Below, piece by piece: positions 61,546-64,000 of a DNA stretch of 64,000 nucleotides. The notes under the pieces were generated by a model that was not told the DNA's origin, ran no database searches, and saw nothing but the letters and a program-made list of their open reading frames with translations. Origin of the DNA: Gemmatimonadaceae bacterium (lineage in GTDB: Bacteria; Gemmatimonadota; Gemmatimonadetes; Gemmatimonadales; Gemmatimonadaceae); contig JACCRF010000041.1 of the NCBI GenBank assembly GCA_013813715.1, positions 186,001 through 250,000 of the forward strand, written 5' to 3'. The position numbers and the translations under genes were made by a program. Numbering within the stretch: position 1 is the stretch's first letter; every line of letters starts with the position of its first letter.

Positions 61546-62844
61546 CTACCGACTCGGGATCGCCTTTCCAGGGGGAAGCGTCTTGTATCGCTCCGTCAGC
61601 AGCTCCTGCCGATCCATCGCCCGGTGCTCACGGCCGGCTACGAATACACGTTCCGCCCGTGACGAGAACTCGAACGGGTCTCCGGTCCAGATGACGACGT
61701 TTGCGTCGCGACCCGCCTGAAGCGACCCCACCCGATCCGCTACGCCGAATACTTCGGCGGGTGCAAGGGTCACCGCCCGCAACGCATCGTCCCACGTCAT
61801 TCCGTACGCAACGGCGTTTCCGGCTTCCTGCTTGATGTTCCGAACGTTGAAGGTCTCTTCGTCGCCGTTGCCGGCGTTGCCGATGATGATGACCTTCACC
61901 CCGGCGCGCCGGAGCAGCCCCGCGTTCTCCTGAGCCTGCCCGAGGGTCGTGAAGCTGCCCGGAATGTTGTTCATCGCGCCGGTCAGCACCGGCACCTTTG
62001 CCGCGGCGAGCCTATCGGCAACCATCCACGCTTCGGCGCCGCCGCCGATGATTACCTTGATGCCGTTCTCGCGTGATATGCGGAGCGCGGCGTCGATGTC
62101 TCCCGCCTTCTCAGCCACCACGATCATGGGAAGTCGCCCTTGAACCACAGGAATCATCGCCTGAAGGTCGAGCCGGCTCGCCGCGAAATCCCGCGTTTCA
62201 GCGCGCTCGAACGCGCCCCGGTTGCGGCTGAACGCTCGTGTATCCTCGATCAGCTCGCGCAGCTTCACGTAAAGCTCGCCGCGGGCGCCGACTCCCGCGC
62301 CCTGCGCCGACTGGATCTGCGCGAACATGGCGATGGGAGCGCGAACTACCATGTCGCTCGCCATTCCGTCCACCAGATTGAGCAGCGCCGCCTGTCCGGA
62401 GACGAGCTGGCCGCCGCTCGGCAGCACGACTACGCTTGTGACACCTTCCCGGCGGGCAGGCGCGATGAGAGTTGACTGGGGGTTGACGCCTTCCCAGACC
62501 GTGAACGCGGCGGCGATGTTGTCCCTCCCGCGCGCTGCGTCATCACGAGTGCCCGCGATCTGTCCTACCTCGACGAGACCGAGTTGCGTCGCCGAGTTGA
62601 TGAGTCCCGGGGTGACCCACTTGCCGGCGGCGTCTATCCGCTGCGCATCGGCGGGTACGGCGACGTTCGCGCCGACGGCGACGATCTTGCCGTTCCGCAT
62701 GAGAACGGTTCCGTTGTCAATCGGGGCACTGCTCACCGGATACACACGGCCGCCCGTGATCGCAATAGTCTGCGCGGACAGCAGCCCGCCGAACAGGCCT
62801 ACCACTGCGCATGCGCCGACTACGGGCGCAATTCTGAAGTTCAT
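61546..62844 (-). CDS. Secreted amidohydrolase-fold protein lacking the metal-binding histidines
   Basis: The 432-residue product has a signal peptide (hydrophobic residues 6-22, cleavage after LLSAQ) and the overall plan of imidazolonepropionase-like amidohydrolases: the N-terminal beta-sandwich RNGKIVAVGANVAVPADAQ, GKWVTPGLI, and C-terminal ALRAVTLAPAEVFGVADRVG with GSLQAGRDANVVIWTGDP. The metal site is gone: the HXH after GLI reads GLINSATQLG, and the later barrel histidines are also missing. The whole protein has one His (GREHR, near the C terminus). It is encoded 7 bp downstream of an intact paralogue, so it may be a structural partner of that enzyme rather than an enzyme itself. A perfect terminator follows. 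Confidence 0.8.
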   Translation of the reverse strand: MNFRIAPVVGACAVVGLFGGLLSAQTIAITGGRVYPVSSAPIDNGTVLMRNGKIVAVGANVAVPADAQRIDAAGKWVTPGLINSATQLGLVEVGQIAGTRDDAARGRDNIAAAFTVWEGVNPQSTLIAPARREGVTSVVVLPSGGQLVSGQAALLNLVDGMASDMVVRAPIAMFAQIQSAQGAGVGARGELYVKLRELIEDTRAFSRNRGAFERAETRDFAASRLDLQAMIPVVQGRLPMIVVAEKAGDIDAALRISRENGIKVIIGGGAEAWMVADRLAAAKVPVLTGAMNNIPGSFTTLGQAQENAGLLRRAGVKVIIIGNAGNGDEETFNVRNIKQEAGNAVAYGMTWDDALRAVTLAPAEVFGVADRVGSLQAGRDANVVIWTGDPFEFSSRAERVFVAGREHRAMDRQELLTERYKTLPPGKAIPSR

Positions 62845-62851
62845 GAAGCTC

Positions 62852-64000
62852 TCATCGGTTGACGTTACCGGGCAGCGGAACGAAGCCCAGCTCGAAGTCG
62901 GTGCGCCACTGCTGCCGCGGATCCAGTCTGTCGTACAGCATCGCGCCGTCAACCCACACTTTCTCGGGGCGTGCGTACACGCTGAACGGATCGGCCGACC
63001 AGAGGACGAGGTCAGCGTTCTTTCCGACTTCAATCGAACCTACCTTGTCGTCGATCCCTAACTGCCACGCCGGATTGATGGTCACCCACTTGATCGCCTG
63101 CTCGGGAGTAACGGCGATGCCAGCAATGTTGCCGGCAGCCATCGCTTTCGCAGCCTCCTGCGTTAGACGCTGCGAGCCTGATGCGTCGTCGGAATGGATT
63201 GCCACTCTCACGCCGGCCCGGTCGGCGAGGGCGGCGTTGGCCTTGACGCCGTCCAGCGACTCCATCTTGAACGAACCCCAGTCAGCCCACAACGAGCCGC
63301 CAATTTGCTCGCGGGCGAGGACGTCGGCGAGCTTATATGCCTCTACCCCGTGATGGAACGCGCGAATTCTGTAGCCGAACTCGCGCGCGATGTCGATCAT
63401 CTGTGCCATCTCGTCAGCCCGATAGCAATGGTTGTGGACGAGAATGTTGCCGCGCAGAACCTCGGCCAGCGTTTCCATTCCAAGATCGCGCACTGGAGGA
63501 TCGCCTTTCTTGTCCTTGTTCCACTTGTCCCACCGCCGCTTGTAGCCTTCGGCGGTGATCCATGCCGTGCGATAGCCGGCGACGTTGCCCATCCTGGTGG
63601 AAGGTCCGCGAGTGGCGTAAACGCGTTTCGGATTCTCGCCGCAAGCCATCTTCAGGCCGTACTTCGCGCCGGGAAACTTCATTCCCTGCACCGTTCGCGC
63701 GGGGACGACCTTGAGCACCGCGCTGCGTCCACCTATGAGATTGGCGGAACCGGGAAGCACCTGAAGTGTCGTGACGCCCCCCGACAGCTCGCGTGGAAGC
63801 TGCGGATCCTGCGGCCACACCGAGTGCTCAACCCAGACCTGCGCCGTGACGGGGTTGGTGGCCTCGTTCACATCGCTGTTTGCCTGGGTGCCCGGCGCCC
63901 CGCCGGCACCGACATGGGAGTGCGTGTCGATAAGCCCAGGCGTGAGATACTTCCCGGCGCCGTCGATCACTGCTGCGCCCGCAGGCACATCCACCGTTGC
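62852..64000 (-). CDS. Amidohydrolase, metal-dependent (partial, N terminus beyond window)
   Basis: At least 382 residues of an imidazolonepropionase-like amidohydrolase. The metal site is intact here: HXH in GLIDTHSHVGAGG, ILVHNHCY, RAFHHGVEAYKLAD and the Asp loop VAIHSDDASGSQRLTQEAA, then VTINPAWQLGIDDKVGSIE and GKNADLVLWSADPF. The reading frame remains open to the last base, and the residues at the edge (TVDVPAGAAVIDG) are internal to the family's N-terminal sandwich, so about 40-80 residues including the signal peptide lie outside. The 5' end is on the right. It forms an operon with the His-less paralogue downstream. The substrate is unknown; relatives cleave dipeptides or cyclic amides. 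Confidence 0.88.
   Translation of the reverse strand, partial: ATVDVPAGAAVIDGAGKYLTPGLIDTHSHVGAGGAPGTQANSDVNEATNPVTAQVWVEHSVWPQDPQLPRELSGGVTTLQVLPGSANLIGGRSAVLKVVPARTVQGMKFPGAKYGLKMACGENPKRVYATRGPSTRMGNVAGYRTAWITAEGYKRRWDKWNKDKKGDPPVRDLGMETLAEVLRGNILVHNHCYRADEMAQMIDIAREFGYRIRAFHHGVEAYKLADVLAREQIGGSLWADWGSFKMESLDGVKANAALADRAGVRVAIHSDDASGSQRLTQEAAKAMAAGNIAGIAVTPEQAIKWVTINPAWQLGIDDKVGSIEVGKNADLVLWSADPFSVYARPEKVWVDGAMLYDRLDPRQQWRTDFELGFVPLPGNVNR

Follow-up and report, generated by a model that had tools for sequence, protein, structure and literature searches.

The gene under study, P, encodes a protein that on its sequence is a pseudoenzyme, an amidohydrolase whose metal site has been lost. It is inherited together with one intact sister enzyme, the adjoining active paralogue A, so the two are probably parts of one two-part machine, which we call the type-1 pair. 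Specifically, we favor the reading of a secreted hetero-oligomeric amidohydrolase in which P is the non-catalytic subunit and A probably the catalytic one. Both genes lie at the end of the window, by which we mean the whole stretch of 64,000 nucleotides that was analysed (Table 1), and the genome carries one such pair only.

Table 1. Location of the type-1 pair and of its junction in the window
Feature	Position	Strand	Details
P, pseudo-amidohydrolase	61546..62844	minus	432 aa, from the ATG at 62844 to the stop codon at 61546
A, active paralogue	62852..64000, cut by window edge	minus	full HxH/H/H/D set kept
A-P junction	62845..62853	minus	7-bp gap, from A stop TGA (62854-62852) to P ATG

Metal site and fold of P

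All five metal-ligand positions of A are substituted in P when the two are aligned jointly. The segment DTHSH of A aligns with NSATQ of P, such that HSH is replaced by ATQ and A85 and Q87 occupy the HxH positions. The histidines of beta-5 and beta-6 are replaced by V243 and G268, and at the beta-8 position P orthologues have no conserved Asp. An earlier, sequence-only reading of this DNA had the HXH motif as SAT, which is shifted relative to the alignment, but its statement that the later metal ligands are missing is correct, as His, His and Asp are all replaced. The metal site is kept in none of 97 P orthologues, whereas the HHHHD set is present in 92 of 92 adjacent A paralogues. Moreover, 87 of the 97 retain none of the four histidine ligands and the other 10 retain one, never more, and the former ligand positions vary freely within the family (A/S/Y/V, Q/T/S and S/E/T). 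The four histidines that mark a metalloenzyme of the amidohydrolase superfamily are likewise found together in 0 of 97 P proteins and in 0 of 31 other pseudo domains. Ligands at shifted positions can be rejected, since no His column is conserved in the family and the commonest ones are minority states; the claim that P is a pseudoenzyme thus withstood this challenge as well. The P family instead has invariant residues of its own (E92, N121, R131, R188, E271, W273, F298, R335, R412 and Y420), and D249, P295, N333, D389 and E392 are also conserved.

The single histidine in the 432 residues of P, counted in the sequence-only reading, is located at position 407. Twelve would be expected from the active paralogues, and a count of one or fewer has a Poisson probability of ~8e-5. 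However, P orthologues have a median of 5 histidines. Near-total histidine poverty is therefore a trait of some lineages and not of the whole family, for which the conserved trait is loss of the metal site.

The N-terminus of P, MNFRIAPVVGACAVVGLFGGLLSAQ-T, is a signal peptide by sequence reading, and P is thus predicted to be exported. A composite N-terminal beta domain precedes a TIM-barrel-type amidohydrolase fold. P matches the Pfam amidohydrolase models (PF01979/PF07969) with 43.6 bits against a cut-off of 25, mainly over its C-terminal part, and 77 of 77 aligned P orthologues match at E<=0.001. Above the Pfam cut-offs, P and A both match amidohydrolase, and P matches no other family; among the families listed, no curated NCBIfam model scored P above its own cut-off. 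An AlphaFold model of P built with 77 family sequences (pLDDT 91.4, pTM 0.88) adopts the amidohydrolase fold, in agreement with the earlier view that its fold motifs are intact. All of its leading structural matches are amidohydrolases, the best being 3ooq (VIA; Z 49.1, 2.8 A, 374 residues) and the second reaching a Z of ~26. The strong match to 3ooq indicates that the fold is intact and the metal site alone is gone. By phmmer, this Thermotoga maritima protein is also the solved structure closest to both A (1.2e-63) and P (9e-45) but, unlike P, it has the metal-site residues in the alignment. Our search for literature on 3ooq found no paper.

The neighbor 7 bp upstream does retain its ligands, as had been noted from the sequence. 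The complete A gene encodes 476 aa and extends ~283 bases past the window on contig C77, and its N-terminus is possibly of the lipoprotein type. H121, H123, H285, H311 and D365 are all present in A and are invariant in 90 of 90 orthologues. The same is true of K211 and E216, whose counterparts are not conserved in P. The spacing of the two genes fits one operon. A weak ribosome-binding-like site for P, GAGAG (62853-62849), overlaps the stop codon of A, which suggests translational coupling.

Joint inheritance of A and P

Orthologues of P occur in Gemmatimonadota, in Alpha- and Gammaproteobacteria, in a bradymonad and in others, and orthologous A-P pairs are present also in Alphaproteobacteria and the bradymonad. 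A is the gene immediately upstream of P, on the same strand, at 102 of 105 loci; the remaining three (L014, L090 and L100) start at or near contig ends. The sequence-only reading had proposed checking whether the pair is conserved in other genomes, and it is. Scans of about 295-300 Gemmatimonadota genomes found A in 117 and P in every one of these 117, with the two genes no more than 400 nt apart in 113. Among 185 genomes of Gammaproteobacteria, A and P occur in the identical 11, one of which (G326) carries a cluster of the trio type described below.

Several apparent exceptions were rejected on inspection. For example, of two seemingly P-only Gemmatimonadota genomes, G099 does have A, although it was unlisted in the second scan, and in G310 a 4.9-kb contig stops beside P. 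In G333, A is present below the first threshold, and G032 has an intact A ~3 kb upstream of P. The locus in this last genome (L178; contig 6, 1400-7400) comprises the intact A, an ATPase-like gene (681 aa), an N-truncated copy of A and then P, an arrangement that resembles an insertion accompanied by a partial duplication. Hence, in the genomes checked, wherever contigs are complete enough to tell, A and P co-occur without real exception.

The computed evolutionary distances of P and A are correlated (r=0.88, reached in 0 of 500 permutations), a value that owes something to shared vertical inheritance. For close pairs, Nei-Gojobori omega ranges from 0.02 to 0.28 for P, which is therefore under purifying selection, and from 0.03 to 0.37 for A, where the top value stems from a near-identical pair.

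Besides A, no neighbor conserved across phyla was found in the fetched loci. A POT-family peptide transporter lies near the pair in several Alphaproteobacteria and in the bradymonad (among them L073:638-2503, L083:2574-4313, L085, L086, L088, L089 and L199:903-2501), a hint that the substrate may be a peptide. Just past the window, a glycerophosphodiester phosphodiesterase (GDPD) gene is located upstream on the same strand (L009:10389-11171), with relatives in 12 fetched loci.

Trios, fusions and origin

Sister clusters in Gemmatimonadota consist of three genes: an active one (A2) flanked on each side by a pseudo gene, with X before it and P2 after it. Such trios, with a second pseudo subunit added, were seen at L113, L114, L118, L119, L121, L122 and L129. 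The HHHHD set is intact in every active domain of the related clusters and in none of their 31 pseudo domains. A third kind of locus (L115, L116, L120 and L127) holds a divergent active/pseudo pair, for which the deep branching in the tree is uncertain.

Adjoining genes of the sister subfamily are also found as natural fusions. We aligned 21 single-ORF fusions of A2 and P2, of 841-955 aa, and several X-A2 fusion ORFs occur as well; open reading frames that join an active and a pseudo domain are located at L126:3215-5938, L123:1351-4581, L147-L161 and L163-L169, and L162, with 1355 aa, is possibly a triple fusion. Type-1 pairs were never seen fused, so the case for an interface comes from the sister subfamily. 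Two equal domains that have no fixed relative position are expected to give a pTM of ~0.5. The best fused AlphaFold model, that of an 866-aa A2-P2 fusion, reaches a pTM of 0.77 with a mean pLDDT of 73, from a shallow alignment of 21 sequences and with 175 residues under pLDDT 50. Because this pTM exceeds the value for unplaced domains, the model suggests a defined arrangement of the two domains.

Firmicutes and Nonomuraea have single-gene active homologues with the full HHHHD set, whose distances to A and to P are roughly equal. No partner gene adjoins those of Nonomuraea, Acetoanaerobium, Monoglobus and Cytobacillus (L201-L204), and judged by eye the homologues apparently have no signal peptides. 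These homologues suggest that the amidohydrolase fold can function without a partner. In a tree rooted on them, the exported active and pseudo genes form one clade (support 100/98), divided into an active branch (85/66) and a pseudo branch (83/51), both with modest support owing to the divergent third kind, whereas the clade that unites P, P2 and X has 100/100. The simplest reading of this computed tree is a single duplication with a single loss of the metal site, after which the trio lineage gained another pseudo copy. From these comparisons, the system is a widespread and ancient one that includes trios and fusions.

A proposed two-subunit enzyme and its alternatives

An evolutionary route to such an enzyme can be proposed. 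An ancestral single-gene metal hydrolase, 3ooq-like or similar to those of Firmicutes and Nonomuraea, would have been duplicated and would have gained export. One duplicate would have retained the metal site, and the other would have lost it while keeping the fold and the interface. The active copy might then have come to depend on the inactive one for assembly, for stability or for completion of the substrate pocket. The sister subfamily would subsequently have gained its second pseudo copy (the trio X-A2-P2), and adjoining subunits would have fused repeatedly into single polypeptides. We infer from the pattern as a whole that A and P form a physical complex, that A catalyses and depends on P for assembly, stability or the binding of substrate, and that the conserved P-specific residues are functional.

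Both the pseudoenzyme and the conserved pair of the sequence-only reading have held up. Its putative heteromer is well supported indirectly, by the computed co-occurrence and operon adjacency, by the fusions of the sister subfamily and by the predicted inter-domain arrangement. More tentatively, a whole class of secreted amidohydrolases may be obligatory heteromers, in which one catalytic subunit is joined by one or two pseudo subunits that lend substrate-binding residues to a clamshell-like shared cavity, and may have arisen from one ancient duplication with repeated fusions thereafter.

Other explanations deserve consideration. For example, E92, N121, R131, R188, E271, W273, N333 and R335 of P are near the segments that form the metal site of A (at positions judged from the alignment), and P might still have its pocket, for ligand binding or sensing, and use it to capture or deliver substrate or to regulate A allosterically, rather than act as a structural subunit. 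We consider this unlikely, since the fusions to an active domain and the strict one-to-one adjacency better fit a stoichiometric subunit, and the same residues could equally form a subunit interface. Alternatively, the invariant charged residues of P and the strong purifying selection on it might mean that P is an enzyme in its own right, whose site is metal-free or differently liganded and which acts on either the substrate or the product of A. However, amidohydrolases that lack a metal site generally have no activity, conserved histidines are absent and the former ligand positions vary freely, all of which makes this quite improbable.

Adjacency and co-occurrence could also arise from two proteins of one pathway. 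Pathway genes cluster generally, and A and P are both predicted to be exported and by their spacing belong to one operon; they might then be ordinary co-operonic paralogues that make no direct contact. Natural fusions of active and pseudo domains, the inter-domain confidence of the fused model and the absence of A-only and P-only genomes in the two sampled lineages argue against this, and we give it little weight. Finally, the loss of catalytic residues and the draft state of the assembly (183 contigs) might point to a decaying duplicate or an assembly artefact. This would be very hard to reconcile with full-length frames at more than 100 loci, including those of the isolates Rhodanobacter, Maricaulis, Glycocaulis, Kordiimonas and Shewanella, or with a dN/dS well below 1; such breadth of conservation, together with the dN/dS, refutes a pseudogene or artefact. 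The subunit reading of P is thus the one we carry forward.

Among the proteins of many soil and marine bacteria that are annotated simply 'amidohydrolase', a large set would be unable to act as metal-dependent enzymes alone, and an active partner that is expressed alone might be an inactive protein. Because a single tree holds pairs, trios and natural fusions, the evolution of dependence on a dead copy is directly testable. Pairs of enzyme and pseudoenzyme are already known, but a widespread exported amidohydrolase family built in this way seems to be undescribed; our literature search for the A-P family, which had most subscription journals outside its coverage, found nothing.

Among proteins with the amidohydrolase fold, the dihydropyrimidinase-related CRMP/DRP proteins have weak sequence similarity to P. 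They are eukaryotic and non-enzymatic, and are not known to be paired with an adjacent active paralogue. In 2-aminoisobutyrate hydroxylase (AibH1H2), a heterodimer, AibH1 is described as structural and AibH2, which is homologous to PtmU3 and repurposed from the amidohydrolase superfamily, as catalytic (PMC12141560). However, AibH1, unlike P, still binds metal, and AibH1H2 represents a different branch and a different chemistry. The pseudo-dihydroorotase (pDHO) of Pseudomonas is a pseudoenzyme of the amidohydrolase superfamily that is inactive alone and needed for the activity of aspartate transcarbamoylase (ATCase; PMC7053772). Its partner is an unrelated transcarbamoylase and it is cytosolic, whereas the partner of P is an active paralogue. 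P itself was rejected as a pDHO, as its conserved partner is A and no transcarbamoylase is among the identified neighbors.

MPP alpha/beta and the bacterial M16B proteins likewise combine an active subunit with a homologue that lacks the zinc motif, encoded in bacteria by a two-gene operon, and in M16A/C both subunits are fused into one chain of ~1000 residues (PMC11266112). P is not an M16 metallopeptidase, because its Pfam matches and its top fold matches are to amidohydrolases only and an HxxEH motif is impossible with a single histidine. Although the M16 fold is unrelated and the A-P pairing is drawn from sequence, an active protein and a metal-less homologue occur together in both systems. 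By analogy, A and P would most likely work like MPP alpha/beta, the M16B pairs or ATCase-pDHO.
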